From assembly GCA_030524175.1 (NCBI GenBank), contig JAUNHC010000005.1, forward strand, positions 62,001 to 126,000: a stretch of 64,000 nucleotides of DNA, given 5' to 3'. Below the pieces are notes generated by a model. It did no database searches, had not been told where the DNA came from, and was given only the letters and a program-made list of their open reading frames with translations. Source of the stretch: Eubacteriales bacterium (lineage in GTDB: Bacteria > Bacillota > Clostridia > Lachnospirales > Lachnospiraceae). Both the position numbers and the translations under genes were made by a program. This document shows, in pieces, positions 26,165 to 46,683 of this stretch. How positions within the stretch are numbered: position 1 is the first letter of the stretch; each line of letters starts with the position of its first letter.

Positions 26165-26170
26165 TTTCTC

Positions 26171-27790: not shown

Positions 27791-27830
27791 CTTTATATTC
27801 CTTTTCTCTCCTGCCGGATAAGCGGCACAG

Positions 27831-29933: not shown

Positions 29934-29947
29934 ATTTCTCTCCTGCC

Positions 29948-30946: not shown

Positions 30947-32745
30947 TATGCCCCCTCCTTATGCTCCTGCGCCACCTCTTCTGTCATAGGGAGATGGATA
31001 CGCACCATAGTTCCCTCATCGGGCTCACTGATGATTTCCAGACCATATTCCTTACCGAAGTAGAGCTGGATCCTCTGGTGGACATTCCGAAGGCCGATCC
31101 CGGAACCTTTGCTGCGCACTCTGGTGTCATCGGTAAGAAGACTCTCCACCTGTTCTTCCGGCATACCAAGACCGTTATCCTCCACTTCAATAAACAAGTC
31201 CCGGTCTTTGGTATATGCACGGATATGGATCTCCCCCTCACCGTCCATATATTCCATCCCATAATAGATGGCATTTTCCACTAATGGCTGGATGATCAAT
31301 TTGATCGTCTTATATTTTTCAATGCCTTCCTCTATCTCGAAATAAGAAGTGAATTTATTTTTATACCTGAATTTCTGTATTTCCAGATAATTCTTTGCAT
31401 GGTGTAGTTCCTCACCTACAGTGATAATATTTTTCCCCTTGGATAGACTGATCCTGAACAGGCTGCCAAGGGCCTGAACCATAGAAATAGCATCCTCATA
31501 CTTCTCTGATTCTACCATCCACATAATAGAATCCAGTGTGTTATACAGGAAATGGGGATTGATCTGGGACTGCAGGGCATCCAGTTCACTTTTCCGCTTC
31601 TGCTCCTGCTCGCGTACAATATCATCTGTAAGCTCACGAAGCTGTTCTACCATGGAACGTACAGTCTCACCCAAATGCTGTATCTCAGGAGAGCCTCCAA
31701 TATAAATCTGAGGCTCTTTATCTACCCCGATTCCCTGAAGGGAATCCTCCAGCCTCTTCAGGGGCTTTACGATCCTCACCGCCACGAACTGGTTGGCAAA
31801 AATCATAAGGAGAATGGACAGAAAGATAATGATCACAGCCATCATCCTTGTACGGTTAAAGTTCTGGAAAAAATTATCCATAGGTGTCACGCTGACGATT
31901 TTCCAGCCCGTATACCCTACAGCTTTCACCACAACCATCCTGTCCTCGCCTTCAAACTCCTCTTTATAAGCACCGTCGTCATATTTACTTGCCGCCAGGT
32001 TATTCTCCTGAAGCATGTTTGAGAAAATAAGATTCTGCTTCGGATGATAAATGATTTTTCCGTCGCTGTTAATGAGATAAACGTACCCCATCTCCTGGTT
32101 GTTAACCTTGGTAAAAAGCTGCCGGATACCGCTGAAATCCATATCTACAAGCAGTATTCCGCCGGACATTTTTCCGCTGCTGGTAAGCTCGACTCCGCGG
32201 CTGAGGGAAATCACCCAGTAATAACGGTTATTGCTGCTTTCAAATATATTCTGGACATGAAGATCAGAAAAATGGAGATTCTCCATCTTGTCCACCGCAC
32301 TGGAAAACCAGCTCTGGGCCGTAATATCCGTATCATCCTTAAGATAACCCACCGGTGCGGACCCGATAAGCTCTCCCTCCTCAGTAAAACAGGCAAGGCT
32401 TACAAGACTGTCCTTATATACCTCATACAGAAGGTTCAATTCCTGGCTCATACTGCTCTCATCCAGGTCTATATTTTTGATGACATTATAATACATGGCA
32501 TCAGAAATCCGCATCATATTGCGCAGGTAAGTATTCAGATTGATCTCCACCTGGTTTAAAAGCTGCTTGCTGTCATTGATAATGATCTCCTCAGAGGCCT
32601 TCCCGTAGCTCTGGAAGAGGAACACCCCGATAAATCCCATTCCCACGATGGCCACCAGGGTAAATGACACTGAGATCATAAACTGCATTCCCCGGTTGCT
32701 CACAGCGGATAATAGCTGCTGCCATTTCTTCTTCAAATATTTCAT
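30946..32745 (-). CDS. Sensor histidine kinase, YesM type with Cache-like domain
   Basis: 599 residues. TM1 at about 22-44, a double-Cache-like extracellular domain (about 50-295, with SWFSSAVDK and GYVYLINSDGKIIYHP), TM2 at about 300-320, HAMP, then the His_kinase motif QSQINPHFLYNTLDS and an HATPase domain with QPLVENAIYYGM, EDNGLGMPEE and GSGIGLRNVHQR. It phosphorylates the response regulator just upstream in the operon. The start is ATG 32745 with AGGAAG 5 nt upstream; GTG at 32751 is the alternative. It overlaps the sensor protein gene by one base. Confidence 0.95.
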   Translation of the reverse strand: MKYLKKKWQQLLSAVSNRGMQFMISVSFTLVAIVGMGFIGVFLFQSYGKASEEIIINDSKQLLNQVEINLNTYLRNMMRISDAMYYNVIKNIDLDESSMSQELNLLYEVYKDSLVSLACFTEEGELIGSAPVGYLKDDTDITAQSWFSSAVDKMENLHFSDLHVQNIFESSNNRYYWVISLSRGVELTSSGKMSGGILLVDMDFSGIRQLFTKVNNQEMGYVYLINSDGKIIYHPKQNLIFSNMLQENNLAASKYDDGAYKEEFEGEDRMVVVKAVGYTGWKIVSVTPMDNFFQNFNRTRMMAVIIIFLSILLMIFANQFVAVRIVKPLKRLEDSLQGIGVDKEPQIYIGGSPEIQHLGETVRSMVEQLRELTDDIVREQEQKRKSELDALQSQINPHFLYNTLDSIMWMVESEKYEDAISMVQALGSLFRISLSKGKNIITVGEELHHAKNYLEIQKFRYKNKFTSYFEIEEGIEKYKTIKLIIQPLVENAIYYGMEYMDGEGEIHIRAYTKDRDLFIEVEDNGLGMPEEQVESLLTDDTRVRSKGSGIGLRNVHQRIQLYFGKEYGLEIISEPDEGTMVRIHLPMTEEVAQEHKEGA

Positions 32746-32754
32746 AAACACTTC

Positions 32755-34380
32755 CTAGCTTTCTCTCGCTCTCTCCTGTGCCTGAAGGTTAGCCCTGTAT
32801 TTAGACGGGGATATCCCATACTGCTTCTTAAAAACATAGCTGAAATAATTGGGCTCTGTATATCCCACTGCCTCTGCAATAATATACGTCTTATCTTCTG
32901 TGGTGCGAAGGAGCTCCACCGCATGTTCCAGACGGATTTTCGTCAGATATGCCACGAAGCTTAATCCCACCTCTTTCTTAAAGATAGTGGAAAAGTATGC
33001 CGCACTTACATTCAAATGGCGGCACAATGTATCCGCTGACAGATCATTCTCCTTATAATGGTCTTCTATAAAAGTTTTTGCCTGTTCTGTCAGCTTCATA
33101 GTAGAATCCGTACGCTCATGGCGCAAGGTATGACGCAGATTCGTACACACATCCTGAAGCCAGTGTTCCAGTTCATCCACTGAAATATACTTGTAAAGCT
33201 CCTGCCAGGGAATGTCACTGTCCCCAAAAATCTGCTTCGTCCTAAGCTTATAGGAACGGCCGATCTTCATCAGCTCAGTGAGAAGCTCCATACACAGAAG
33301 CTGATACTGGTTAGGCGTAATAGACAGATTCCTGATACTCTCCATAAACTGTTTGATCGCCGCATTCGTCTCATCCCTGTCACCCAGCTTAACCGCACGC
33401 ATCAGATTCTGAAAATCATATTCCATAAGGGAAACAGATTCCTGTGGACTTGGCTCGATGTCATGGATATAAAGCACTTGGCTTCCGCTCATGATAGTGC
33501 GGTATTCCATGGCATTTCTGGCTTCCTGGTAAGAGGTGGTGAGATGGTCCATCTTGTCACATATCTGTCCAACAGCAGCAGTGACCTGCGCCTTCAGCAC
33601 ACGTGTCCCCATCTTACACACCTGGTCAAGATGATATAGGACTTTATCCATATCATTCCTGTCCTCCAGCATGAACAGAAGTATCACCTCATCAAGATAA
33701 ACTGTACTGTAAAATCCAATACGCTCCTTCAGATAATCCTGTGCCATCTCCTTCAGCGATAAAGTAAGAAGCTGCTGAGTATTGCCGTTAGCCTCTTTAG
33801 CGTTTATATCTGCATAAAGCAGAGCCACTACATAATAAGGAGATTCCAGATGCATCTCATAGGTATCCAGCATATTCTTAGCCCTGTCACCTGTAACCTT
33901 CCCCTCCAGCATACCCATGACAAGCTGCTCCTGCATAGCCGGAAGACTCTTCTTGTAATATTCTGAAAGCTTGCTCAAATTCCGGTGCTCACTGAATTCC
34001 TGGTCCAGCTTCTCCTTAATCTTACGGAAAACATTTTCCATATCCTTTGCACTGATAGGCTTAAGAAGATATTCCTCCGCCTCCAGATGCACCGCCTCCC
34101 TGGCAAATTCAAAATCATCAAAACCAGAATAAATAACCACCTTCATATTCCTGTAATTCTGCTTCAGCTTCCGGCAAAGAGTCAGCCCGTCCATATAAGG
34201 CATCTTAATATCAGTCATCACCACATCTATGTGGAGCTGCTCCGCCATCTCAAGAGCCTCCTGCCCATTCTCCGCCGTCCCCGCCAAACAAAACCCCATA
34301 GCTTCCCAATCAATTTTCCGTTTCATTGCCAGCAGCACATCCGCCTCATCATCCACCAATAATATATTATACAGCTCCAT
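32755..34380 (-). CDS. Response regulator with AraC-type DNA-binding domain, YesN type
   Basis: 541 residues. Receiver domain 1-120: DDEADVLLAM, phospho-acceptor in VVMTDIKMPYMDGL, Lys in YLLKPIS. A central region of about 290 residues follows. The C-terminal AraC domain has SADTLCRHLNVSAAYFSTIF and IIAEAVGYTEPNYFSYVFKK. It is the first gene of the sensor operon that runs on into jetDABC. Likely targets are sugar-import genes such as mglBAC, and it may also control its own operon, which would put Wadjet under the same control (inference). Confidence 0.95.
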   Translation of the reverse strand: MELYNILLVDDEADVLLAMKRKIDWEAMGFCLAGTAENGQEALEMAEQLHIDVVMTDIKMPYMDGLTLCRKLKQNYRNMKVVIYSGFDDFEFAREAVHLEAEEYLLKPISAKDMENVFRKIKEKLDQEFSEHRNLSKLSEYYKKSLPAMQEQLVMGMLEGKVTGDRAKNMLDTYEMHLESPYYVVALLYADINAKEANGNTQQLLTLSLKEMAQDYLKERIGFYSTVYLDEVILLFMLEDRNDMDKVLYHLDQVCKMGTRVLKAQVTAAVGQICDKMDHLTTSYQEARNAMEYRTIMSGSQVLYIHDIEPSPQESVSLMEYDFQNLMRAVKLGDRDETNAAIKQFMESIRNLSITPNQYQLLCMELLTELMKIGRSYKLRTKQIFGDSDIPWQELYKYISVDELEHWLQDVCTNLRHTLRHERTDSTMKLTEQAKTFIEDHYKENDLSADTLCRHLNVSAAYFSTIFKKEVGLSFVAYLTKIRLEHAVELLRTTEDKTYIIAEAVGYTEPNYFSYVFKKQYGISPSKYRANLQAQERARES

Positions 34381-34719
34381 TACGTCTTCCTTCCTATCAT
34401 CCCTATTCTAAATCCCGCACACCCCCTGCCCCAGCAGCGCCGATATACTTTATTGTACCAAATCATCGCCCCAGTGACTACCCCCGGCATTAAGAACTTA
34501 CAAAATAAATACAAAAAAAGCAGCTCCCGCTGCTTCTTTTATCCTCATCCCCTCCCGTCGGACCACCCGTGCGCCCAACGGGCCGCACCCAAAAGAAGCA
34601 GCCCCCGCTGCTTCTTTTATCCTCATCCCCTCCCGTCGGACCACCCAGCGTGCCCAACAGGGGGAGTTTGAGGGGGACATGCGGGCTTCGCAACTCCGAG
34701 CTTGTCCCCCTCAAGGTCT
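34381..34719. other. Intergenic region with terminators and repeat R1
   Basis: 339 bp between the aldolase stop and the response regulator start. It holds the R1 repeat with two terminators (34517-34723). The rest, 34381-34510, should contain the promoter of the sensor operon; minus-strand TACAAT near 34458 is a possible -10 box but no convincing -35 box was found. Confidence 0.55.
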
Positions 34720-34723
34720 TCAA
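34517..34723 (-). repeat. Terminator-rich repeat R1 (left copy)
   Basis: Read on the minus strand it begins with a stem TTGAGGGGGACA/TGTCCCCCTCAA just after the aldolase stop, then two rho-independent terminators: AAAAGAAGCAGC/GCTGCTTCTTTT at 34591-34618 (12-bp perfect stem) and AGCAGC/GCTGCT at 34517-34540. The 90 bp at 34634-34723 match 43989-44078 with only two mismatches, in the same orientation. The aldolase stop codon lies inside the repeat. Confidence 0.85.
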
Positions 34724-35565
34724 AACCTACACAACTCCATCTTCTTCCTCAAATACTCCATCAATTTTCCCTGTACAAACTTAGGCATATCAAACACATT
34801 CCCTTTATCCTTATATGTCTCACAGTATTCTTTAATACTGTCATAATTCAACTGGAAGAACTCAGTTCCCACATTAAATTTATTGATACCCTTTGTAAAT
34901 GCAATTTCCAGCTGATCATTGGGAATCCCGCTTCCTCCGTGGAGCACAAGGGGTACGTCCGTAGCCTCATTGATCTCAGACAATCTTTCCAGATCTAATT
35001 TAGGAGTTTCCAGGTATACACCGTGGGCACTGCCTATTGCCACTGCAACAGAGTCCACTTGTGTCTCTTCACAGAATGCTGCTGCCACTTCCGGCTTCGT
35101 ATACATATCCAGCTTGTCCTGGTCAGAATCCTTGGCAAATCCTACCCGGCCCAGCTCTGCTTCAACATCCACGTCAAAGGCATGTGCAATCTCCACTACC
35201 CTCTTGGTCAGCTTGATGTTTTCTTCCACAGAAAGCATAGAACCATCGATCATTACAGAACTGAATCCGGCCTTAATAGCTTTCATAATATAGTTGATGT
35301 CACTGCTGTGGTCCAGATGAAGACCGATGGGAACCTTTACATTGGCCGCAAGGCTTTTCACCGCAGCCGCGAAAGCTGCTGGGTCTGCTGCGTTATTCAG
35401 ATGATGATGCTCAGGATAAAGCATTATGATCACAGGTTTCTGCAGTTCCTCCGCCACTGTAATGACAGAATAGATCATATTGTAGTCTGTACAGTTAAAT
35501 GCAATTACTGATGTATTGGCCTCATCTGCCATTCTTAAAATATCTTTTACCTTAGTTAATGCCAT
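34720..35565 (-). CDS. Class II ketose-bisphosphate aldolase
   Basis: 281 residues, zinc-dependent aldolase of the FbaA/GatY/KbaY family, which cleaves a ketose 1,6-bisphosphate (or similar) to dihydroxyacetone phosphate and an aldehyde. Seen: zinc and catalytic residues in GLHLDHSSD, MIDGSMLSVEEN, VEAELGRVG, AIGSAHGVY, PLVLHGGSGIP and FNVGTEFF. The spacing resembles tagatose-bisphosphate aldolases. It is the last gene of an eight-gene operon after two DhaK/DhaL pairs, which suggests that it cleaves the phosphorylated product of those kinases. The true substrate cannot be read from sequence. Confidence 0.9.
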   Translation of the reverse strand: MALTKVKDILRMADEANTSVIAFNCTDYNMIYSVITVAEELQKPVIIMLYPEHHHLNNAADPAAFAAAVKSLAANVKVPIGLHLDHSSDINYIMKAIKAGFSSVMIDGSMLSVEENIKLTKRVVEIAHAFDVDVEAELGRVGFAKDSDQDKLDMYTKPEVAAAFCEETQVDSVAVAIGSAHGVYLETPKLDLERLSEINEATDVPLVLHGGSGIPNDQLEIAFTKGINKFNVGTEFFQLNYDSIKEYCETYKDKGNVFDMPKFVQGKLMEYLRKKMELCRF

Positions 35566-35629
35566 GATATGTATCCTCTCTTTATCTTTATTTTAATGTT
35601 GGTCTCAAAATATATTTAAATCCTTGTGC

Positions 35630-36259
35630 CTACAGATTTCTCTGCGCAGAAATAGAAATAGCCTTAAAAATAAGCATACCTACTGTAGCCCCTCCATCCA
35701 CCTCACCGATGGTTTTGTCACCGTAGTAAGCGATTCTGCCGTGTTTCCCTTTCATAGTCTTTGTCAGCTCCATACCCTCATATGCAGCCTGATATGCTTG
35801 CTCAAATACATCCGGCTCACCGCTCTTCTCTAACAAGATGCGCACACCGGGAATCAGACTGTCCAGGATTGTCTTATCTCCCGGACGGGATTTTGCCTTA
35901 TCCATGATCATCTGTATGCCGGCATCCATTGCCTGTGCCATCTCCGACAGGCCAGCTTCTGTTTTCCCTTTAAGGACCTTTGCCATTCCCATAAACCCAA
36001 ATGACATGATCGTGCCCAAAGTAGACGGAGCCGCTTCATTAAACTCAGATGAACAATTCTTCAGAAGCTTACCCAGATCATCCTCCTGTGCTGTCTCCAA
36101 ATACTGTGCCACCTTCTTAAATCCCTGGCTCATGGAGATACCCAGGTCGCCGTCCCCGAATCTGGCATCCAGAGAGACCAGATAATCTGCATTCTCGTCC
36201 ATAACTGCGCTGATTTCTCCAAGCACATTCTTTAATTCTTCTCTTTTCATTGGTATCAT
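35630..36259 (-). CDS. dhaL: DhaL-type kinase subunit (pair 1)
   Basis: 209 residues, the nucleotide-binding half of a dihydroxyacetone-type kinase. The Mg-binding Asp cluster reads LDARFGDGDLGISM; the His usually following (GDGDHG) is Leu here. Other DhaL features: APSTLGTIMSFGFMGMAK and the C-terminal GRIAYYGDKTIGEVDGGA. It probably works with the DhaK encoded just upstream. There is no phosphoryl-carrier DhaM gene in the window, so ATP is the expected donor. An alternative start three codons in (ATG 36250) is possible. Confidence 0.88.
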   Translation of the reverse strand: MIPMKREELKNVLGEISAVMDENADYLVSLDARFGDGDLGISMSQGFKKVAQYLETAQEDDLGKLLKNCSSEFNEAAPSTLGTIMSFGFMGMAKVLKGKTEAGLSEMAQAMDAGIQMIMDKAKSRPGDKTILDSLIPGVRILLEKSGEPDVFEQAYQAAYEGMELTKTMKGKHGRIAYYGDKTIGEVDGGATVGMLIFKAISISAQRNL

Positions 36260-36366
36260 CCCCTTTCTCCCTGATTTATTAGCCCTGGTTTTTTACCGAT
36301 GTTGGGGTCATAAGGTACTTTCCCCGCTGATGCCTGGGGAATTCCCCGCACATGGTGACCCTGGCA

Positions 36367-37374
36367 TCATTTATTGCTGTTGGTATAAAACGGTGTATTG
36401 GCAGGCTTTCTGAGATATCCTTTCAGCCTGTCATTCAGCTTAAAGATGGTCACGGATGCACCTGCCATCTCCATGGAGGTTGCAAATTCCCCGATGTGGG
36501 GCATGTAGATAGAAACACCCATATCCTCAAGCCGTCCTGATATCCTGCGGTAAAGTATAAACTGCTCCTCCAGGGGAGTCGCCCCCAGACCGTTCACCAT
36601 CACCGAGACCTCATCTCCTGGTACCAGCGGCATATCCTCCAGCAGCTTATCAAGAACACGGTCAGCAATTTCGTCTGCCTTCATCATACTGCAGACCTCA
36701 ATCCCCGGCTCCCCGTGAATACCCATTCCCAGTTCAAGCTCATTCTCACCGATTTCAAAGGTTGCCTTGCCAACCTCAGGGACAATACAGGGAGACAAGG
36801 CTACTCCCATAGTCCTGATATTGTCCAGAGCTTCCTGGGTCACCTCTGCCACCTCTCTCAGGGACAACATTTCATCTGCAGCAGCTCCGGCAATCTTGAA
36901 GGCATATACCATTCCCGCCACACCCCGGCGCATATCCATCTCCGCCTTGGGTCTGGAGGCTACATCATCCTTCACCAGAACCTGCATTGTCTGCACATCA
37001 TCAAAATCTGCGTTTTCACAGGCCATCTGAAAATTCATTACATCTCCGCCGTAATTTCCGTACAGACAAAGAACTCCGCTGCCATGGTCTGCTGCCTTGA
37101 TCATTTCTTCCATCTTCTTAGCGGAAGGAGAAGCAAATACATTTCCTACGGCACAGCCGTCCAGCATCCCCTCACCCACGTATCCCAGAAAAACAGGGAG
37201 ATGTCCGCTTCCGCCGGCTGTCACAATCCCCACCTTTCCAGGTTTTACCGGCGTATTCCGCATAAGGATCCTCTTCTGTTCGTCCAGGACCTTTACCTTG
37301 TCCTTGTAGGCTGCCAGAATGCCATCCATCACCTCCGGCACAAAATCCTGAGGCTCATTTATAATCTTTCTCAT
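36367..37374 (-). CDS. dhaK: DhaK-type kinase substrate-binding subunit (pair 1, canonical residues)
   Basis: 335 residues. It holds the ketone substrate for phosphorylation. The residues known from E. coli DhaK are kept: His in GGSGHLPVFLGYVGEGM, Asp in GNYGGDVMNF and the covalent-binding His in GMGIHGEPGIE. It is therefore a plausible active dihydroxyacetone or short ketose kinase subunit. The start ATG 37374 was chosen because GGAGGAAGG precedes it and family homologues begin at MRKIINEP; it overlaps dhaL of pair 2 by 20 nt. Confidence 0.92.
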   Translation of the reverse strand: MRKIINEPQDFVPEVMDGILAAYKDKVKVLDEQKRILMRNTPVKPGKVGIVTAGGSGHLPVFLGYVGEGMLDGCAVGNVFASPSAKKMEEMIKAADHGSGVLCLYGNYGGDVMNFQMACENADFDDVQTMQVLVKDDVASRPKAEMDMRRGVAGMVYAFKIAGAAADEMLSLREVAEVTQEALDNIRTMGVALSPCIVPEVGKATFEIGENELELGMGIHGEPGIEVCSMMKADEIADRVLDKLLEDMPLVPGDEVSVMVNGLGATPLEEQFILYRRISGRLEDMGVSIYMPHIGEFATSMEMAGASVTIFKLNDRLKGYLRKPANTPFYTNSNK

Positions 37375-38029
37375 GTCCTTCCTCCATTTCTTCCAACAAA
37401 CGGATTTCTTGTGCAAACGCTTTAAAAATGAGACTGGTAGATATCGCTCCCGGGTCCGGGTAACCTATGGTAGCTTCCTGAAAATTCTTGGATCTTCCTA
37501 CCCTGGACTGCATGTTTTTGCTGGCCTCCACACCTTCCAGTGCAGCTTCATAGGCCATACCGAAGGCTGCCCCCAAATCTTTGTGCTGTGCAGCTGCCTT
37601 CTTCAGAGACAGCACCGCAGGATAAAGGGCGTCCAGCATTGTTTTCTGCCCCGGTTTTGCTTTTCCTCGTTTTTCTATGGCAGCCTCTCCCACCTCAAAA
37701 TACTTAGCAAGCTGGTCAAGATTCACCTGTTCTCCGTGGGGGATGTCGTCCAGCCCTCCGAAAAATAAGGTACAGAAAATGACTCCGGATGCCCCTCCCA
37801 TACTTTTCAGTAATTCCATACCAACCTCTCCGCAGAGGCAGTTCACATCCGTGTACACCTTCCGGTCCAGCATTTTCCAGAGGGCTGTGAACCCCCGTTT
37901 CATCCCTGTTCCGTGGTCACCGTCACCTATAATATTATCTATCTCTGTGAGATACGGTTCGTTTTCTATAATTGTCTCTGCCACACGCCTGAAAATCCTC
38001 TGCAGCTGAGATATCTTTAACTGTTTCAT
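37355..38029 (-). CDS. dhaL: DhaL-type kinase subunit (pair 2)
   Basis: 224 residues. The Asp cluster is fully canonical: IDNIIGDGDHGTGMKRGF. MGGASGVIFCTLFFGG and GRSKNFQEATIGYPDPGA are the other DhaL signatures. It sits between the two dhaK genes and overlaps the canonical one by 20 nt, while the atypical DhaK is encoded 56 nt upstream, so it could serve either or both. The expected nucleotide is ATP because no DhaM is seen. Confidence 0.9.
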   Translation of the reverse strand: MKQLKISQLQRIFRRVAETIIENEPYLTEIDNIIGDGDHGTGMKRGFTALWKMLDRKVYTDVNCLCGEVGMELLKSMGGASGVIFCTLFFGGLDDIPHGEQVNLDQLAKYFEVGEAAIEKRGKAKPGQKTMLDALYPAVLSLKKAAAQHKDLGAAFGMAYEAALEGVEASKNMQSRVGRSKNFQEATIGYPDPGAISTSLIFKAFAQEIRLLEEMEEGHEKDYK

Positions 38030-38085
38030 AAATCACCTCTTACTTATGTACGTGTATACCCCATCCCGGCTCTGGCCCGGCTGCT

Positions 38086-39045
38086 TTAAATGGTGAAATC
38101 ATATCCCTTCACCGGCCTGAGATAAGGCTCGAGCTGCGTATCATAAGCCATGACACTCACAATACATCCGTTTGTCTCAAAAGCATCAAAATAGCTGCCC
38201 ACAGTACAGCTTCCCGCCTTATATCCCCGGCGGACAAGCTCTCTGTTCAAGGCATTTACCATTACATAGCCTTCCAGATATGACATTTTTTTCATCCGGT
38301 TAACCATGATATGGAATTTATCCTCTGCTTTATAAGTCTCCAGCTCCGGAAGAAGATAATCCAGAATGTTTGCCGCTGTATGGTCAGCAGAGATAAATCT
38401 CTCCCTGCCGGCAGGAGGCTCGCCGGAGAATCCGTTTCCATATTCCACTGCACCGTCTTCTTCCGAACAGCACACTGCTATAGTTCTCAGACGTGCGTTC
38501 GCCTTTTCTACAATCTCCGCCATCTCTTCAAGACCTGCTCCCTGGTCGGCGAGAGCTGCGGCTATTTTAAGCAGAATTCCAATCCCTGTCATTCCGCCCC
38601 GCTTTTCTTTCCCTTCGCCTTTTGCACTGCATACATTGTCGCTTACATAGCACACATAAGAAGGGATATCTTCACGGGAAAGCAGTTCCCGGGCCATATC
38701 GTTATTCAGGTAATCCCCTGAATAATTGTTGGTCAGAATAAATATTCCTTTTCCTTCCTGTATCTCTTTTCCTGTCTGGTATATAAGCCAGGCATTGGGA
38801 GCACAGTTAAAATCTCCGTGCACCATAGCGTCTGCAAGTCCTTCTCCTACTACCCCGGGGAAAAGAGGCCCCCAGCCGCCTCCTCCATTGACCATGATCC
38901 GGACCTTTTCCGGCTTACGGCATTTCTTCACAAGGGCGTAGCTGTACTCATTTTCAATGCGTTCATATTCCCCTGGCTGGGCTAACAGCAGGCCTTTCAG
39001 CATTTCATCCAAAGCCGTTTCAATAGAATTGAGCAATTTCATCAT
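38086..39045 (-). CDS. Atypical DhaK homologue lacking both active-site histidines (pair 2)
   Basis: 319 residues, somewhat shorter than DhaK. The general fold signatures are present (VVGEGLADAMVHGDFNCAPN, NNYSGDYLNNDMA), including the Asp of the NYxGD motif. But the first active-site His (GGSGH in family members) is Trp in NGGGGWGPLFPG, and the covalent substrate-binding His (GIHGEPG) is Ser in GNGFSGEPP. I checked both in the DNA (TGG near 38877 and TCC near 38431, minus strand). It therefore cannot form the usual hemiaminal with a ketone. It may bind a different substrate or act as a partner or sensor subunit. Confidence 0.85.
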   Translation of the reverse strand: MMKLLNSIETALDEMLKGLLLAQPGEYERIENEYSYALVKKCRKPEKVRIMVNGGGGWGPLFPGVVGEGLADAMVHGDFNCAPNAWLIYQTGKEIQEGKGIFILTNNYSGDYLNNDMARELLSREDIPSYVCYVSDNVCSAKGEGKEKRGGMTGIGILLKIAAALADQGAGLEEMAEIVEKANARLRTIAVCCSEEDGAVEYGNGFSGEPPAGRERFISADHTAANILDYLLPELETYKAEDKFHIMVNRMKKMSYLEGYVMVNALNRELVRRGYKAGSCTVGSYFDAFETNGCIVSVMAYDTQLEPYLRPVKGYDFTI

Positions 39046-39056
39046 TCATCACCTGC

Positions 39057-40037
39057 TTAATTTTTCTCACGTTTCTGTGCCATATCAACGATAACCGCCA
39101 GAAGGATGATCAGTCCCATGATTACCTTCTGCCAATAAGAGGAAATCTGCATTAAGTTCATACCATTATTGATAATAGCGATAATGGCACAACCGATCAT
39201 GGCGCGGAGCACAGAGCCGATACCTCCTAAGAAGCTGGTACCTCCCAGAACCGTGGCAGCGATAGCATACATTTCATAAGCATCACAGGCTGCCGGCTGG
39301 CCGTTATTTAACTTGGAAGTTACACATACGCCTCCAAGTGCCGCCATAATTGAGCAGATGATATGCGCACGTATTTTCACCCAGTCCACATTGATTCCGC
39401 TTAAATGTGCAACCTTTTCATTACTTCCCACTGCAAACACGTGACGGCCGAAAACTGTCTTCGTGAGCAGGATATGCATGAGTACCACGATAATAATTGT
39501 AAAAATTGTGATGATAGGAATAATTCCTAAAGGCACTGATTCCGTCTTCAGCAGACGTCCTGCCCCCAGCCATGCAAAACTGTCAGGAAGTCCGTATACA
39601 GGCTGTCCGTCTGTGATAACATAAGCCAGCCCTCTTGCCATGGTCATCATTGCCAGGGTTGCGATCATTGCCACAACCTTAAACTTGGCAATCATAATTC
39701 CATTAAACAAACCGCAGATTCCACCGATCAGCACGGCACTGCCAATCTGGATCAAAAGAATGATCACCAGCGGAGCGTCAGGGAACTTCAATCCCAGGTA
39801 AGCTGCAAAAATTCCCGCAAATGCAGCCACTGAGCCTATACTGATATCAATTCCTCCAGTGATGATGACATAGGTAATACCAACGCACAGCAGCGCATTG
39901 ATGGACATCTGTGCAGTAATATTGATTATATTTGTAGGAGTTAAAAATGTTTTATTTGCTATGCCAAAGAATATGATTAGTATGAACAGAACAATCACTA
40001 CAGCATTCTTCTTTGACCATTGTTTCAATTTCTCCAT
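39057..40037 (-). CDS. Ribose-type sugar ABC transporter permease (RbsC family)
   Basis: 326 residues, 8-10 TM helices. Family features: GITYVIITGGIDISIGSVAAF, MMTMARGLAYVITDGQPV and GTSFLGGIGSVLRAMIGC (split motifs). It forms the channel with the RbsA-like ATPase encoded 76 nt upstream; dhaK of pair 2 follows after 11 nt. The imported substrate is probably what the downstream kinases phosphorylate. Confidence 0.95.
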   Translation of the reverse strand: MEKLKQWSKKNAVVIVLFILIIFFGIANKTFLTPTNIINITAQMSINALLCVGITYVIITGGIDISIGSVAAFAGIFAAYLGLKFPDAPLVIILLIQIGSAVLIGGICGLFNGIMIAKFKVVAMIATLAMMTMARGLAYVITDGQPVYGLPDSFAWLGAGRLLKTESVPLGIIPIITIFTIIIVVLMHILLTKTVFGRHVFAVGSNEKVAHLSGINVDWVKIRAHIICSIMAALGGVCVTSKLNNGQPAACDAYEMYAIAATVLGGTSFLGGIGSVLRAMIGCAIIAIINNGMNLMQISSYWQKVIMGLIILLAVIVDMAQKREKN

Positions 40038-40113
40038 AGCTACTTCCCCTTTAACATTCGTTATATATGGATTGCGGCTGCCCGGGGAAACTCCCCTCTG
40101 TCAGCCCCAAGGC

Positions 40114-41637
40114 TCACGCTTCACTCTGTATGCTTGCAAGCTGCATGATTCTGTACTCTGTTGCCTCATCTTTCGCTAATTCTCCGCATTTCACACCTTC
40201 ACGCATGACCATCACACGGTCGGATACTCCCAGGATCTCCGGCAGCTCCGAGGAAACCATGACAATACAGCCGCCCTCTTCCACAAAAGCATTCATCAAT
40301 CCATAGAATTCTGCTTTTGCATTTACATCAATACCTCTTGTGGGTTCGTCTAAAATCAGTATCTCTGACTGCGCCACCAGCCATTTTGCCAGTATGACCT
40401 TCTGCTGGTTACCGCCGGAAAGATTTTTGATCAATGTGTTCATACCCGGAGCTTTAATCTTCAGTTTCCCGAAGTATTCATCGCACACCTCTTTCTCCCA
40501 CTTAGGATTGACAAAACCGCCCTTGCGTTTCGTCCTTTTAAGGCTTGGAAGAACAACATTATTTTTAATGGAAGCTTCCAGCATAAGTCCGGTACGGCGC
40601 CTGTCCTCTGTCACAAATCCGATTTTATGTGCAATGGCATCCTTTGGTGACCTGAAATGCACTTCTTCTCCTTTTACATATACAGACCCGGATGTCTTTC
40701 TCCTGTCTGCAAATATTGTCTCCATAAGCTCAGTACGCTTTGCTCCCACCAGTCCTGCAACTCCCAGGATTTCCCCCTGATAGGCTGAAAAAGAAATGTT
40801 ACGGAATACACCGTCCACAGTGAGATTCTCTACCCTGAGCATTTCCTTTTTTCTTGTGTGTTCCTGCTGGTTATAGTAATCAGATATTTCACGGCCTACC
40901 ATGTTTGCCACTATTTCCGCTTCTGTGATATCCTTAAACAGCGAACTCTTCACAAACTGCCCGTCCCTTAATATGGTCACCCTGTCCGCAATGACCGGAA
41001 GCTCCTTTAAACGGTGAGTGATATAAATGATCGCAACATTATTCTTCTTTAACAGTTCTACCTGCTTAAACAGGGCATCAATTTCACTTTCAGACAGTGA
41101 TGAAGTAGGTTCATCCATGATGACAAGCTTGGAGTTTCTGGTGATAACCTTGGCAATCTCTATCATCTGCTGCTGAGCAGCAGAGAGCTCTCCTGCAATA
41201 TCCGTAGATTTAATATCCACTCCCATAAACTCAAGGGCCTTCTGTGCATCCTGCTCCATCTTCTTTCTGTTGAGGATAAACCCTTTCTTCCCTGCTGACG
41301 GCTCACGCCCTACATAAATATTCTCCGCAACCGAAAGCTCATTAGCAATACTCAGCTCCTGGTGGATGACCGATATACCGCAGTCCAACGCCTCCCCAGG
41401 GTTTTTGTAATGCTTTTCCTGATTTTCAAAAATCACCTTTCCCTCTGTAGGTGTATATACTCCTGATATGATTTTGATCAGCGTGGATTTACCTGCACCG
41501 TTCTCTCCCAGCAAGGCATGGACCTCTCCCGGATAAAAATCAATTGATATATCCGTGAGAGCCTTTACCCCCGGGAAAACCTTTGAAATATTCTTCACCT
41601 GTAGGATTGGCTGATTTCCCTTTTCTTTATTATCCAT
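40114..41637 (-). CDS. Ribose-type sugar ABC transporter ATPase (RbsA family)
   Basis: 507 residues, two fused nucleotide-binding domains. The first is complete: Walker A GENGAGKSTLIK, signature LSAAQQQMIEIAK, Walker B LVIMDEPTSSLS. The second has the usual degenerate Walker A (GLVGAKRTELME) but a normal signature LSGGNQQKVILAKWL and Walker B ILILDEPTRGID. This is the normal CUT2 arrangement. It powers import through the RbsC-like permease. Confidence 0.95.
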   Translation of the reverse strand: MDNKEKGNQPILQVKNISKVFPGVKALTDISIDFYPGEVHALLGENGAGKSTLIKIISGVYTPTEGKVIFENQEKHYKNPGEALDCGISVIHQELSIANELSVAENIYVGREPSAGKKGFILNRKKMEQDAQKALEFMGVDIKSTDIAGELSAAQQQMIEIAKVITRNSKLVIMDEPTSSLSESEIDALFKQVELLKKNNVAIIYITHRLKELPVIADRVTILRDGQFVKSSLFKDITEAEIVANMVGREISDYYNQQEHTRKKEMLRVENLTVDGVFRNISFSAYQGEILGVAGLVGAKRTELMETIFADRRKTSGSVYVKGEEVHFRSPKDAIAHKIGFVTEDRRRTGLMLEASIKNNVVLPSLKRTKRKGGFVNPKWEKEVCDEYFGKLKIKAPGMNTLIKNLSGGNQQKVILAKWLVAQSEILILDEPTRGIDVNAKAEFYGLMNAFVEEGGCIVMVSSELPEILGVSDRVMVMREGVKCGELAKDEATEYRIMQLASIQSEA

Positions 41638-41661
41638 ATGCTATCCCGCTCACTTTTTAAT

Positions 41662-41712
41662 AGAATGGGACCGCCGCCAGTCCCGGTATGTACTTTGCAG
41701 CGATCCCATTCT
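41662..41712. promoter_or_regulatory. Hairpin between the rbsB-like and rbsA-like genes
   Basis: AGAATGGGA (41662-41670) pairs with TCCCATTCT (41704-41712) around a GC-rich loop. There is no T-run on the transcribed strand, so it more likely protects the 3' end of the binding-protein mRNA than terminates it. Confidence 0.5.
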
Positions 41713-41744
41713 TATTTCATTGCTACGTTTCTATAGTTCTGTGT

Positions 41745-42710
41745 TTATTTCAGGCCTTCTTCCACAATATAGTCATAGTCGATGATGTATGGGTCAATAG
41801 GAATCTGCTCTGCGTCAACCTTGCCTTCTGTCAGATATTTGTTGATCTGCTCAACAATAGTAGCACCGATGAGAGGCGGATTCTGGGATACTTCAGATAC
41901 CCACCATTTTCCGTCTCCATCTTTAGCATAGATGGCATCAATTGCTTCCGGATTTCCGTCGTATCCGATGATCAAGGTACTGGCACCTGCTGATTTAATA
42001 GAGGCAAGCGCGCCGGAAGCAGCCGGGTCACCAGCACAGAAGATTGCATCCAGGTCGGGAGCAGCAGTCAGCCAGTCCTGAACAAGAGATGCCGCCACGT
42101 TGGCATCACCCTGATAGTTACCGTTGAATTTCACTTCAATATTATCAATCTTCTCCATTTCGGACATAAATCCATTTTCTCTGTCCAGACATGCAGCGGA
42201 AGCAGGGTTTCCGATGAATCCCACAGTGCCGCCTTCTTCCCCAAGTAAATCCTGTACTGCCTGTGCGCCCAATTCTCCGCCCTTCACGTTATCTGTACCT
42301 ACATGGCAGACAATACAATCAACTGTGTCACAGCCTGAGTCAAAGGTAAACACAGGAATTCCTGCTGCATCTGCTGCCTTGATGGCCGGGCCTACTCCCG
42401 CTGCATCTACAGTCGCCAGCGCAATAGCATCCACCTTCATGGCTACCAGATTCTCAATATGGTTTGACTGAATGTTGGCATCCAGCTCGCCGTCATAGCA
42501 GAGAGCTTCAATTCCCAATTCCTCACATTTCTCTTTAATGGCTTCCTCGATGAGATTATAAAAAACATGCTCTCTGGAACCTACGATAAACCCTACCTGA
42601 TAAGATTCCTCAGCCCCGCCTTCGGCCTCCCCATGCACCACTGCCGGAACCGCCATCGTTGTAGCTGCCAATGCAGCACTTAGGATAATCCCCATCATTC
42701 TTTTTTTCAT
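41745..42710 (-). CDS. Ribose-type sugar-binding protein (RbsB family)
   Basis: 321 residues. Signal peptide KRMMGIILSAALAATTMAV with a type I site near VVHGEA; there is no lipobox Cys, which is unusual in a Gram-positive. The fold signatures are YQVGFIVGSREHVFYNL, DAIALATVDAAGVGPAI, GIPVFTFDSG, GTDNVKGGELG and FCAGDPAASGALASI. It captures the sugar or polyol for the RbsAC-like transporter. First gene of the operon; its promoter overlaps a palindromic operator at 42776-42790. Confidence 0.93.
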   Translation of the reverse strand: MKKRMMGIILSAALAATTMAVPAVVHGEAEGGAEESYQVGFIVGSREHVFYNLIEEAIKEKCEELGIEALCYDGELDANIQSNHIENLVAMKVDAIALATVDAAGVGPAIKAADAAGIPVFTFDSGCDTVDCIVCHVGTDNVKGGELGAQAVQDLLGEEGGTVGFIGNPASAACLDRENGFMSEMEKIDNIEVKFNGNYQGDANVAASLVQDWLTAAPDLDAIFCAGDPAASGALASIKSAGASTLIIGYDGNPEAIDAIYAKDGDGKWWVSEVSQNPPLIGATIVEQINKYLTEGKVDAEQIPIDPYIIDYDYIVEEGLK

Positions 42711-43042
42711 TTTGTTTCCTCCTTTTCTTTTTTGTTTGTTTTTATTCGTTGTTCTTGTTTGAGTGACTTAAGTTTAGAACATTTTGTTCTGAATGTCAAT
42801 TATTTTTACCCCATCATTTTGTTTTTGTAAGTAATAGACAAAAAAGATGTTTTACATTTGTTTGTTATTTTTCTTTTTAATTTATGTTTTTTTATCTTTT
42901 TTATTTTTTTCACAAATATATGTGTGCGACTTTTGTAGTTTTACCCATTTCTTTTTTATTGGATTTTGATAAAATAAAGAAAAGTCAGAAAGACAACATG
43001 ATGTCAAAGCAGAAAACCTTACAGCGTAGAAATGGAGAGTAT
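42711..43042. other. Divergent control region between rbsB-like and deoR-like genes
   Basis: 332 bp, very AT-rich. Besides the promoter/operator at 42771-42799, it has recurring TTTGTTT motifs (near 42731 and 42858), a common theme of DeoR-family operators. A plus-strand open frame runs through it into deoR but has no ribosome site before 43032. Confidence 0.6.
42771..42799 (-). promoter_or_regulatory. Promoter of the rbs-dha operon with operator in the spacer
   Basis: On the minus strand: TTGACA (42799-42794), a 17-nt spacer and TAAACT (42776-42771). A perfect palindrome AGAACA-ttt-TGTTCT (42776-42790) fills most of the spacer, where a bound repressor would block RNA polymerase. The DeoR-type protein encoded divergently is the obvious candidate ligand. 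Confidence 0.7.
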
Positions 43043-43831
43043 ATGTTAGCCCAGGAACGCAGAGATAAAATTATCGAATTGGTAAACACGGATAAAATTG
43101 TTAAAGTAAGCGAACTCAGTGAATTGTTTTCTACCACAGAAGTCACCATACGACGTGACCTGGACGAACTCCAGGCACAGAAGAAAATATGCAGGATCCA
43201 CGGCGGTGCGATCCCCCTTAAATCAGCCAGCAAAAGCCTCACCCGGGAAGAGCTTTCAATCCGCTGTCCCGCAGAAAAAAAGATGATAGCCCAGTGCGCC
43301 TATCATTACATAGAAGACAACGATGCCATACTGCTGGATGCCTCCACAACAGCTCTGGAACTGGTCCACCTGATCATAGAAGGCACGAAAAAGAACCTCA
43401 CCGTTGTCACAAACTCCTTCAAAGCAATCACCCTCCTCCAGACACGCCCCGATATAGACCTGTTCCACATAGGCGGCCAAGTAAGGCGTGATATGGACAG
43501 CACCTTCGGCGCCCTGGCCGAAACCCTCCTGAAAAACATCCGGGTAGACAAATGCTTCCTGGGAACAACAGGAATCGATATCCATTTCGGCTACTCCGAC
43601 CCAAACTTCAATGACAGCTCCATCAAGAAAGGAATGATCTCCGCTGCCAAACAGAAATTCATCATAGCCGACCACACAAAATTCAACGACTCCTACATCG
43701 GCAAATTCGCAGACTTCTCCGGCGCTATCGACTACCTCATCACCGACCGCCTCCCCACCGGCCTTGACCGCGAATACATAGAAGCCAACGTAAACCTAAT
43801 CCTAGCCCAAGACCAAAATCCCCCATCCTAA
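43043..43831 (+). CDS. DeoR/GlpR family transcriptional regulator
   Basis: 262 residues. The N-terminal helix-turn-helix has VKVSELSELFSTTEVTIRRDLDEL, then the family hinge RIHGGAI. The C-terminal sugar-phosphate sensing domain has ILLDASTTALEL, LTVVTNS, GGQVRRDMDSTFG, and the FLGTTGID and IADHTKF motifs. Such repressors respond to a phosphorylated intermediate of the pathway they control, here probably the kinase product. The start is ATG 43043, with GGAGAG just upstream. It is divergent from the rbs-dha operon. Confidence 0.93.
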   Translation: MLAQERRDKIIELVNTDKIVKVSELSELFSTTEVTIRRDLDELQAQKKICRIHGGAIPLKSASKSLTREELSIRCPAEKKMIAQCAYHYIEDNDAILLDASTTALELVHLIIEGTKKNLTVVTNSFKAITLLQTRPDIDLFHIGGQVRRDMDSTFGALAETLLKNIRVDKCFLGTTGIDIHFGYSDPNFNDSSIKKGMISAAKQKFIIADHTKFNDSYIGKFADFSGAIDYLITDRLPTGLDREYIEANVNLILAQDQNPPS

Positions 43832-43866
43832 ATAATCCCCCAGTGCGCCCACCGGGCGCACAAAAA

Positions 43867-44078
43867 AGAAGCAGCCACCGCTGCTTCTCTTATCTCACCC
43901 ATCCCTACCGTCGAACCACCCAGTGCGCCCATCAGGCCGTACAAAAAGAAGCAGCCCCCGCTGCTTCTCTTATCTCATCCATCCCTACCGTCGGACCACC
44001 CAGCGTGCCCAACAGGGGGAGTTTGAGGGGGACATGCGGGCTTCGCAACTCCGAGCCTGTCCCCCTCAAGGTCCTCAA
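43867..44078 (-). repeat. Terminator-rich repeat R2 (right copy)
   Basis: Same architecture and orientation as R1: the stem with GGGGGACA next to the mglC stop, then two terminators with AGAAGCAGC/GCTGCTTCT stems at 43947-43968 and 43867-43888, each followed by T-runs on the minus strand. The 90 bp 43989-44078 match R1 with two mismatches. It ends 4 nt before the mglC stop codon and probably also terminates deoR from the other side. Confidence 0.85.
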
Positions 44079-44082
44079 GGTT

Positions 44083-45072
44083 TTATTTCTTAGCAATATA
44101 CTTCCTAATATCCAACGCAATCGCCACAACGATAACAATACCCTGTGCAATATACTGATAGTTCGTATTCAATCCCATAAACTGCATGGCTGATTTCAAA
44201 AGCTCGAATACTGCAACACCGATGATAACACCGGAAACCTTACCGATACCACCATTTACAGATACACCGCCGATAGTACATGCCGCAATTGCCTCCAGCT
44301 CGTAACCCATTCCCATGTTAACACTGGTACCGCCGGACTTGCCGCCCAGGAGGAAACCTGCGATAGCATACATACAAGCTGCTGTTATGTAGATGATGAT
44401 TTTTGTCTTTTTAACATTAACACCGGAAACCTCAGCTGCAACTTCATTGCCGCCGATTGCATACATATATTTTCCGTGACGGGTGTAATTATATACAAAC
44501 CAGAAAATTGCTGCAGCTATGATCAAATAAATAAACAGCAGAGGAATCGGTCCAACCTTACCCTGTGTTACGCTGATATAATCTGCACGGTATCCGCCGA
44601 TCGGAACAGAATTAGTTACAACAAGTGCAATACCATAAACAATAAGCTGCATACCAAGAGTTCCGATAAATGCAGGTACATTCAGATAAGATACTACAAT
44701 ACCGTTAATAAGGCCAAAAATAGAGCAGATAGCCATAACGATCAGAAGAACCACCCATACATTCAACTGTGGAAAATTCGCCCAGATTTTACCGGGTGCA
44801 TCCGGCTTCTGAAGCATTATACCTGCAAGGCAGGCACTTAAACCAACTGCACGTCCTGCGGAAAGGTCCGTACCTTTCGTAATCAGACAGCCGCTGACAC
44901 CGAGTGCGATAATTACACGGGGGGCCGCATTAATTGCCAGATTCATCAGGTTTCTGAAGCTACGGAATGTAGGTACAGTAATACTTACATAAAGTACAAG
45001 AATCATCAGTAATACAATGATACCATTATTTATCAACAAATTCTTAATATCTATTTTTTTTGTTTTGTCCAT
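44083..45072 (-). CDS. mglC: Galactose/methyl-galactoside ABC transporter permease
   Basis: About 329 residues, 8-10 TM helices: ALGVSGCLITKGTDLSAGR, VPAFIGTLGMQLIVYGIAL, YAIGGNEVAAEVSGVNVKK and GYELEAIAACTIGGVSVNGG (given in part) are typical of MglC. The start is ATG 45072, with AAGGAGGAG before it, rather than GTG 45090, which lies in the ribosome site. It is the last gene of mglBAC; mglA ends 18 nt upstream. Confidence 0.93.
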   Translation of the reverse strand: MDKTKKIDIKNLLINNGIIVLLMILVLYVSITVPTFRSFRNLMNLAINAAPRVIIALGVSGCLITKGTDLSAGRAVGLSACLAGIMLQKPDAPGKIWANFPQLNVWVVLLIVMAICSIFGLINGIVVSYLNVPAFIGTLGMQLIVYGIALVVTNSVPIGGYRADYISVTQGKVGPIPLLFIYLIIAAAIFWFVYNYTRHGKYMYAIGGNEVAAEVSGVNVKKTKIIIYITAACMYAIAGFLLGGKSGGTSVNMGMGYELEAIAACTIGGVSVNGGIGKVSGVIIGVAVFELLKSAMQFMGLNTNYQYIAQGIVIVVAIALDIRKYIAKK

Positions 45073-45090
45073 TCTTTTCTCCTCCTTCAC

Positions 45091-46596
45091 TTAGAACTGC
45101 GTAGCATAATGCATGATATTTTCCTGGGTAGCTTCTTCTCCGGACACTTCCCCGGTAATCTTGCCATTACACATAACCATGATACGGTTGGAAACACCTA
45201 TCAGCTCAGGCATTTCTGAAGATATCATAATAATTCCCTTACCCTGCTTTGCGAGATTAATCATAATCTGGTATATTTCATACTTTGCACCCACATCAAT
45301 ACCACGTGTAGGCTCATCCATGATTAATACATCAGGATTGTTGGCAAGCCAGCGTGAAATAATTACCTTCTGCTGATTACCTCCTGACAACGCCTGGATT
45401 AAGGTTTTGCTGCTTGGAGTCTTGATACTCAGTTTTGCCACATTATCCTGAACCAGCTCTTCGATTTTTTTCTTATCCAGTTTAATACCGGCTTCCAGAT
45501 ATTGATCCAGTGAGGCAAGAGCAACGTTATCTGCAATGGAAAGACAACCTAAAATACCAGAACCACGGCGGTCCTCAGTGATCATACCGATACCGTTTCT
45601 AATAGCGTCTTGCGGCCGTTTGATATCAATCTTGGCACCGTTAAGTTTCACTTCACCGCTGACTGTATGACGGATACCGAAAATCGCCTCCATAAGTTCT
45701 GTACGCTGTGCACCTACAAGGCCGCCAAAACCAAGTATTTCACCTTTTTTAAGTTTGAAGGAACAGTTTTTGAAAGAGTTTGCATGGATACTGGTAAAAT
45801 CATTTATCTCCAGAAGAACATCCCCTGGCTCATTGTCCAGAGGCGGATAAATGTTTGTCAGCTCACGTCCAACCATCTGCTTCACAATTTCATCGTCACT
45901 GATATCTTTCATCTTCCATGATCCTACAAAAGCACCATCTCGCATTATTGTAATGTCATCGGAAATTCTTCGAAGCTCTGCCATCTTGTGGGAAATAAAT
46001 ACAAAGGAAACCCCTCTGTCACGCAAATCACGGACAATAGCAAATAAAGCTTCTACTTCATTATCTGTAAGTGAGGAGGTCGGTTCATCCAGAATGATCA
46101 GTCTTGCTTCCTGGGAAACCGCTTTGGCAATTTCTACTGACTGCATCTGGGAAATAGACAACTCTCCTAATTTTCGTTTAGGGTCAAAGGGCATTTTTAC
46201 ATTTTCCAGCCATCTCTTTGCTTCTTCATTCATGGTCCTATGGTCAATAACTTTAAGAGGCCCTATTGACTTTGTCGGATAACGTCCCAAATACATGTTT
46301 TCCGCAATAGTACGTGCCGGTACCGGCTGCAGTTCCTGATGCACCATGGCAAGACCTTTATGTAATGCCTCATCAGGATTGCCTATATTGACTTTTTCTC
46401 CATCTACAAAGACTTCTCCCTCGTCCATGTGATAGATACCAAACAGGCATTTCATGAGGGTAGACTTACCTGCACCGTTTTCCCCCATGAGGGCGTGGAC
46501 TGTTCCGGGACGTACTTTTAAGTTTACTTTGTCCAGCGCCTTGACACCCGGGAAGCTCTTGCTTACACCGCGCATCTCCAATCTATATTCTGCCAT
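45091..46596 (-). CDS. mglA: Galactose/methyl-galactoside ABC transporter ATPase
   Basis: 501 residues, two fused ATPase domains. First: Walker A GENGAGKSTLMK, signature LSISQMQSVEIAK, Walker B LIILDEPTSSLT. Second: degenerate GLVGAQRTELME, then LSGGNQQKVIISRWL and VLIMDEPTRGID. It drives import through MglC. The start is ATG 46596 with GGAGAG upstream; an in-frame ATG at 46662 would start inside the mglB-mglA hairpin. Close relative of the RbsA-like protein at 40114. Confidence 0.94.
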   Translation of the reverse strand: MAEYRLEMRGVSKSFPGVKALDKVNLKVRPGTVHALMGENGAGKSTLMKCLFGIYHMDEGEVFVDGEKVNIGNPDEALHKGLAMVHQELQPVPARTIAENMYLGRYPTKSIGPLKVIDHRTMNEEAKRWLENVKMPFDPKRKLGELSISQMQSVEIAKAVSQEARLIILDEPTSSLTDNEVEALFAIVRDLRDRGVSFVFISHKMAELRRISDDITIMRDGAFVGSWKMKDISDDEIVKQMVGRELTNIYPPLDNEPGDVLLEINDFTSIHANSFKNCSFKLKKGEILGFGGLVGAQRTELMEAIFGIRHTVSGEVKLNGAKIDIKRPQDAIRNGIGMITEDRRGSGILGCLSIADNVALASLDQYLEAGIKLDKKKIEELVQDNVAKLSIKTPSSKTLIQALSGGNQQKVIISRWLANNPDVLIMDEPTRGIDVGAKYEIYQIMINLAKQGKGIIMISSEMPELIGVSNRIMVMCNGKITGEVSGEEATQENIMHYATQF

Positions 46597-46619
46597 CCCA
46601 CTCTCTCCTTTCCATTTCT

Positions 46620-46652
46620 CAAAAATTGGGTGTGCCCCTTTCGACACACCCA
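46620..46652 (-). terminator. Attenuator-type terminator between mglB and mglA
   Basis: On the minus strand GGGTGTG (46651-46645) pairs with CACACCC (46634-46628) across a 10-nt loop, followed by AATTTTTG. A weak terminator here would let most transcripts stop after mglB, giving more binding protein than transporter. Confidence 0.75.
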
Positions 46653-46683
46653 ACATTATCATTTTTTTATTACCTGAACCTGA

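Follow-up and report, generated by a model that had tools for sequence, protein, structure and literature searches.

Gene content of the operon

The window analysed here is a stretch of 64,000 nucleotides from the genome of a Lachnospiraceae bacterium (assembly GCA_030524175.1, contig JAUNHC010000005.1, positions 62,001 to 126,000, forward strand; contig C50 in our numbering, in which L denotes loci). The genome comprises 5.95 Mb in 119 contigs and is 90.7% complete. Between positions 34720 and 43831, the window carries a putative sugar catabolic operon in which two pairs of genes of the dihydroxyacetone (DHA) kinase families, dhaK and dhaL, lie between the genes of an ATP-binding cassette (ABC) importer and a class II aldolase gene. 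All nine genes of the locus, including a divergent DeoR regulator gene, are intact, with open reading frames of full length. This agrees with the gene set and order given in an earlier annotation made from the sequence alone (the original prediction), as does the lack of an isomerase or dehydrogenase gene inside the co-oriented group. Transcription on the minus strand runs through a sugar-binding protein of CUT2 type (41745–42710, Pfam Peripla_BP_4), whose conserved pocket differs from that of RbsB, an RbsA/AraG-like importer ATPase with two ABC domains (40114–41637) and an RbsC-like permease (39057–40037), the last two assigned by family profile matches. These are followed by dhaK2 (38086–39045), dhaL2 (37355–38029), dhaK1 (36367–37374), dhaL1 (35630–36259) and the aldolase gene (34720–35565). 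Gaps within the operon measure at most 107 bases, and the 3' end of dhaL2 overlaps the start of dhaK1 by 20 bases. The dhaK1 start is most likely the ATG at 37374, preceded by GGAGG, and not the listed TTG at 37416. The DeoR-family gene (43043–43831, plus strand, HTH_DeoR and DeoRC domains) most likely starts at 43043 and not at 42884, since its best family match begins only at residue 54 of the longer frame; its product presumably senses a sugar phosphate.

No match to the DhaM profile TIGR02364 was obtained in this genome at 90.7% completeness; as a control, the profile matched in 3 of 14 known genomes. With DhaM missing, ATP is likely the phosphate donor instead of phosphoenolpyruvate, as had been proposed.

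A clade of DhaK proteins without the active-site histidines

DHA kinases are known for holding their small ketone through a covalent bond to a histidine, and known DhaK enzymes require His56 (E. coli numbering, used throughout). DhaK2 matches Pfam Dak1 with 191 bits (gathering threshold 31.4), with His56 replaced by Trp, His218 replaced by Ser and Asp109 retained. DhaK1 has His56, Asp109 and His218. The cut-off of the DhaK equivalog TIGR02363 (406 bits) was reached by neither protein (DhaK1 366.7, DhaK2 172.2). The ATP-binding subunits also differ: DhaL2 is canonical, scoring 162.9 bits with TIGR02365 (cut-off 138.3) and retaining the three Asp residues and the GGASG motif, while DhaL1, the Dak2-family partner of DhaK1, stays below that cut-off (129.5 bits) and has the three Asp but PSTLG in place of GGASG. 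The original prediction had counted two DhaKL kinases without remarking on the missing histidines of DhaK2 or the missing GGASG of DhaL1. Two DhaK/DhaL pairs are indeed present, but they are not of one kind.

To place these changes, 75 DhaK rows from the window, from the scan loci described below and from L034–L037 were aligned, duplicates being counted once. Ser218 and Asp109 occur in all 31 DhaK2-type rows and His56 in none; position 56 is Asn in 11 rows, Arg in 5, Tyr in 5, Asp in 4, Trp in 2, Cys in 2, Lys in 1 and Gly in 1. A loop deletion beside the His218 motif is found in 31/31 of these rows and in 0/44 of the others, and all 44 of the other DhaK rows have both histidines. The 31 rows form one side of a single branch with 100/100 support in an 80-row tree that carries a long-branch warning. 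Ser218 and the adjacent deletion suggest a wider, non-covalent site in DhaK2, which, as a member of this histidine-less clade, cannot bind a ketone covalently in the manner of known DhaK proteins.

We also considered whether histidine loss is unique to this clade, and rejected the idea. Among 27 further DhaK frames outside it, from 27 loci of genomes of the family, one in another genome (L021, 1471–2508) has Asn at both histidine positions and no loop deletion. His218 is present in all of the remaining 26 and His56 in 25 of them, the last frame being truncated short of position 56. The L021 protein, which falls outside the clade, represents a second, separate loss of both histidines. Its gene has a neighbour of DeoR type on one side and a dhaL on the other, and a PfkB-like frame comes after it (neighbours assigned by eye).

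Linkage and distribution across genomes

Genome contigs were searched with a four-row DhaK2 alignment and the resulting 61 loci were sorted by tblastn: 28 carry a DhaK2-type gene and 33 an ordinary DhaK only. The latter are off-target catches of the scan, and so serve as a contrast and not as a random sample. DhaL2 was found near DhaK2 in 25 of the 28 loci. An aldolase of the clade described below ("MLxP"; at least 45% identity, nearby and on the same strand) was found in 24/28, against 0/33 of the loci with ordinary DhaK only. Three of the four misses (L065, L067 and L043) are sequences that end less than 1 kb from DhaK2; only L072 truly lacks the aldolase, and it lacks DhaL2 as well. The binding protein (at least 40% identity) lies near DhaK2 in 19/28 loci. 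A CUT1-type importer, identified by eye, is present in L042 and L048–L051, as well as in L034 of the genome studied here. As to the other loci without a counted binding protein, L053 and L054 start inside importer genes, L047 has no importer beside DhaK2, and the binding protein of L072 is on the opposite strand.

A complete DhaK1–DhaL1 pair accompanies DhaK2 in the window and in 5 of the 28 scan loci (L041, L042, L044, L046 and L047), and the sequence of L043 ends inside DhaK1. No DhaK1 stands alongside in 19 of the 24 DhaK2–aldolase loci or in 19 of the 25 DhaK2–DhaL2 loci. The "two kinases" are therefore a core plus an option: importer, DhaK2, DhaL2 and aldolase form the core, and DhaK1–DhaL1 is optional. 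Given the catalytic motifs of DhaL2 and the frequent lack of a neighbouring DhaK1, DhaK2–DhaL2 should be a working kinase.

The core was seen in Lachnospiraceae, other Clostridia, Christensenella and Synergistota (the last two by record titles), and this recurrence of an identical gene order in other genera and phyla indicates that the arrangement is not due to chance. It is nonetheless uncommon, being found in 2 of 392 genomes of the order, our own included, at a strict limit of E 1e-70. In the trees, Blautia schinkii DSM 10518 (L041) comes closest to the window; Muricomes intestini DSM 29489 (L045) is another named strain with a related operon. No plasmid-borne copy was found in PLSDB at megablast sensitivity. 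A literature search with little reach into subscription papers found no description of a histidine-less DhaK or of such an operon, in line with the original view of the pathway as undescribed; the component gene families are already known.

Variants of the gene set were also observed. The same genome holds a second histidine-less DhaK/DhaL/aldolase set on contig C51 (L034), together with a rhamnulokinase-like kinase (258 bits, below the cut-off of 528) and an Aldolase_II-family gene. Clusters that resemble it by eye occur in Schaedlerella (L049) and Blautia schinkii (L050). In L037 (7687–10328), two different histidine-less DhaK genes lie in tandem with a single DhaL and an aldolase.

The class II aldolase

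The aldolase scores 240.4 bits with TIGR00167, the ketose-bisphosphate subfamily model (cut-off 215.6), and reaches the cut-off of none of the listed equivalog models. It keeps the metal His, the catalytic Asp and the HGGSG and NxxTE motifs of PF01116, the metal, catalytic and C1-phosphate roles being those that we take these residues to have. The GTPGTF loop of GatY/KbaY, with its S/T-x-G motif, reads MLYPEH in the window aldolase; in this protein and in every DhaK2-linked relative compared, ML[YLD]P replaces S/T-x-G. Presumably, S/T-x-G is the holder of the distal phosphate in bisphosphate aldolases, and its replacement weakens the label of ketose-bisphosphate aldolase given in the original prediction. 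The MLxP aldolases form one clade of 36 rows in a quick 56-row tree that carries a long-branch warning (Shimodaira–Hasegawa-like approximate likelihood ratio test, SH-aLRT, 100); the clade includes L131, whose frame starts upstream. GatY, KbaY and FbaA were assayed on bisphosphates in one report (PMC10101011).

MLxP aldolases also occur without DhaK2, next to other kinases. In L131, L136 and L139 the neighbour is a PfkB kinase. FucI-like isomerases lie nearby in L136 and, below the Pfam cut-off, in L139; both weakly resemble sulfoquinovose isomerase (97 and 89 bits against a cut-off of 700), for which reason sulfonated ketoses are kept open as substrates. An ADP_PFK_GK-type kinase adjoins the aldolase in L132–L135, L137 and L138 (tested in L132, the others by eye), and 4 of these 6 loci have a D-lyxose isomerase (tested in L133, the others by eye). 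That the kinase changes while the aldolase stays the same suggests that the former supplies the latter with its substrate.

Importer and substrate class

The binding protein reached 116.4 bits with the RbsB equivalog (cut-off 337) and differs from RbsB at 9 of the 14 positions that we take to be its ribose contacts. The differences include Asn13 to His, Arg90 to Ser or Cys, Phe164 to Gly and Asn190 to Gly, with Asp89, Arg141, Asp215 and Gln235 shared. All 23 rows compared (21 distinct) have the same pocket pattern, with two-letter variation at three positions. Since the allose binder AlsB of E. coli, used as a control, itself differs from RbsB at 7/14 positions, the count is weak evidence alone, and conservation within the set is stronger. 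The Gly, Ser and Cys substitutions in a near-invariant pocket suggest that the ligand is probably a sugar larger than ribose. A ribose system is unlikely in view of the RbsB cut-off and the pocket residues, and the operon is probably not one.

Accessory genes give further hints. In L044, a D-psicose 3-epimerase gene (431 bits, cut-off 300) lies 43 bases 3' of the aldolase, followed by a LacAB_rpiB-family gene. A 406–435-residue protein encoded beside the operon in L042 (17480–18700) and L045 (3866–5173) is weakly like mannose-6-phosphate isomerase structures (E 2.5e-4) and has no Pfam match up to E 0.1. PfkB-type kinases are found in L052 and L053 (below equivalog cut-offs), in L037 and L063 (Pfam PfkB) and, by eye, in L060. 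Taken together, these genes point to free ketoses and not to one particular sugar. The epimerase was rejected as a pathway marker, its aldolase-adjacent copy being seen only in L044 and none lying on contig C50. Elsewhere in the genome, four D-psicose 3-epimerase genes exceed the curated cut-off (two on C64, one each on C77 and C39), and three of them adjoin sugar ABC importer genes of CUT2 appearance.

A proposed ketose 1-phosphate pathway

The sequences show directly which genes are present and in what order, which residues have changed, how the proteins group into clades and how the linkage is conserved; from this we infer all reactions, the sequence in which the kinases act and the type of substrate. 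The reading that we favour, at slightly less than even odds, is uptake of a ketose, its 1-phosphorylation by DhaK2–DhaL2, cleavage to dihydroxyacetone phosphate and an aldehyde, and action of DhaK1–DhaL1 as a triokinase. The CUT2 importer would bring in a free ketose, most likely a ketohexose, with a pentulose, a heptulose or a substituted ketohexose as possible substrates. DhaK2 is predicted to bind the sugar in an ATP-dependent ketose kinase of which DhaL2 is the other subunit; together they would phosphorylate the C1 hydroxyl with no covalent bond between protein and sugar. The MLxP enzyme, a predicted ketose 1-phosphate aldolase, would split the product into dihydroxyacetone phosphate and an aldehyde without a phosphate group, which for a hexulose would be glyceraldehyde. 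DhaK1, with its normal active site the predicted triose kinase subunit, would act with DhaL1 on the resulting triose, and DeoR would be relieved by a pathway intermediate.

Mammalian fructolysis proceeds through ketohexokinase, aldolase B and triokinase/TKFC, the last being itself a DhaKL enzyme. The scheme proposed here resembles it in the sequence of kinase, ketose 1-phosphate aldolase and predicted DhaKL-type triokinase, and differs in that the first kinase would be a DhaKL relative and the aldolase is of class II. According to PMC6429413, human triokinase phosphorylates D-glyceraldehyde and DHA and binds the triose covalently at His221. The more specific proposal, that DhaK2–DhaL2 is a DhaKL ketokinase acting non-covalently on whole C5–C7 ketoses in a bacterial fructolysis-like pathway, whose version in the window would have DhaKL enzymes both before and after the aldolase, is one that we hold tentatively, at odds somewhat below even. 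If true, it would show the DHA kinase fold working on larger sugars after loss of the covalent histidine, still coupled to DhaL and an aldolase. It would also give a function to genes annotated as "dihydroxyacetone kinase" or "fructose-bisphosphate aldolase" and account for a possible use of uncommon ketoses by some gut bacteria.

Several observations weigh against this pathway, chief among them that some DhaK2 loci have a PfkB gene or a second aldolase alongside. The PfkB-type enzyme of the five loci named above is perhaps the ketose kinase there, which would leave DhaK2–DhaL2 another step. Among the 24 scan loci that combine DhaK2 with the aldolase, 6 have a second class II aldolase (below 45% identity), and 5 of the 6 loci with the ADP_PFK_GK-type kinase also have a second one, so the MLxP enzyme is not necessarily the cleaving one at those loci, and the inference that the kinase feeds the aldolase is weakened. 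In addition, DhaK2 lacks His56 and is possibly non-catalytic, the distal-phosphate role of the S/T-x-G loop is presumed, and the D-psicose epimerase occurs at one locus only. Relatives of DhaK1–DhaL1 lie in varied loci (threonate-like, HPS/PHI-like and FucA-like, families by eye), which makes triokinase just one option for this pair.

In a first alternative, the roles are reversed: DhaK1–DhaL1, or PfkB in relatives, would make the ketose phosphate, and DhaK2–DhaL2 would phosphorylate a cleavage product such as a tetrose or glycolaldehyde. Known DhaKL enzymes act on C3–C4 substrates, which would suit this assignment, as would the PfkB genes beside DhaK2–DhaL2 in those five loci (in L060 by eye). 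An L-erythrulose 1-kinase, LerK, is named in PMC10733421, and also counts in its favour. However, the short-ketone site is kept in DhaK1 and not in DhaK2, DhaK1 is absent beside 19 of the 24 DhaK2–aldolase loci, and L056 has no recognised sugar kinase besides DhaK2–DhaL2 (by eye, among the open reading frames in 12 kb). We consider the reversal unlikely.

DhaK2 could also be a sensor or regulatory subunit like DhaQ, a known non-kinase paralogue of DhaK, leaving DhaK1 with DhaL1 or DhaL2 as the only kinase. Loss of both catalytic histidines would fit such a role, which we nevertheless regard as improbable: DhaK2 scores 112.5 bits with the DhaQ coactivator model TIGR02362, far below its cut-off of 413, Asp109 is retained throughout the clade, most DhaK2–DhaL2 loci (19/25) have no neighbouring DhaK1, and the operon already has a DeoR regulator. 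Formation of a ketose bisphosphate by two successive phosphorylations ahead of cleavage, one of the two routes in the original prediction, could draw on the two kinases, the TIGR00167 score and the PfkB neighbours of some loci, but it is very unlikely, as the presumed distal-phosphate loop is missing from every operon-linked aldolase compared and the aldolase is accompanied by DhaK2–DhaL2 without DhaK1 in 19/24 loci; one phosphorylation before cleavage and one after fits better.

Comparison with known systems

The proposed ketose 1-phosphate pathway has partial counterparts elsewhere. In E. coli, the octuluronate kinase YdjH, which is of PfkB type, and the 1-phosphate aldolase YdjI likewise pair a kinase with a class II aldolase for a ketose 1-phosphate, and a regulator gene of DeoR type is close by. 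That locus differs in having putative dehydrogenases and no ABC importer, and the YdjI loop reads FGTGF against MLYP in the window aldolase. The tetritol and apiose pathways (LerK/DerK, AplK) share a DhaKL-type kinase in a sugar catabolic cluster, and proceed via isomerases or dehydrogenases. The E. coli DhaKLM system and the ATP-dependent DHA kinase of Citrobacter have the same Dak1 and Dak2 folds and the active site kept in DhaK1, whereas DhaK2 lacks His56 and His218 and the operon lacks DhaM. With the tagatose-bisphosphate aldolases GatY and KbaY, the window aldolase shares the Pfam family F_bP_aldolase and the metal and catalytic residues, but it falls in a separate clade, has the distal-phosphate loop replaced and has no GatZ-type partner in the operon.

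Transcription signals and genomic surroundings

A promoter-like site (42771–42799, minus strand; TTGACA-17-TAAACT, 10 of 12 positions) lies just 5' of the binding-protein gene. It is one of the two top-scoring sites of the region, the other lying inside dhaK2; such sites number 19 against a shuffled mean of 14.9 (sd 4.2) and are thus hardly commoner than in shuffles. A terminator-like hairpin of 14 pairs (34511–34542, minus strand) was found by the hairpin scan 3' of the aldolase gene, and a weaker one of 7 pairs between the binding-protein and ATPase genes; terminator-like sites number 16 against a shuffled mean of 7.5 (sd 2.9). A single transcript is plausible from these signals. An inverted repeat, AGAACA-AAA-TGTTCT, lies within the promoter-like site; as it was not found in 7 relatives, it was rejected as a conserved operator and given no evidential weight.

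Two direct repeats, each some 215 bases long and 88.6% identical to one another (34513–34723 and 43863–44078), bracket the whole operon together with the DeoR gene. No further copy of nearly full length was found in the genome, where parts of 31–101 bases recur on other contigs, some as inverted pairs. In Blautia schinkii L041, a single partial copy lies 3' of an mgl-type permease. The bracketed block may have been gained or lost as a unit. On one side of the operon is a galactose/methyl-galactoside-like importer (28836–34380); on the other are two binding-protein-like proteins, a histidine kinase and a response regulator (44083–47763; families on both sides by eye), so that the operon stands as if placed between an importer and a sensor set. 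Farther out, at 21040–28817, lies a Wadjet-type defence system with type 3 JetC, JetB, JetA and JetD, for each of which the top PADLOC match is nearly full length.

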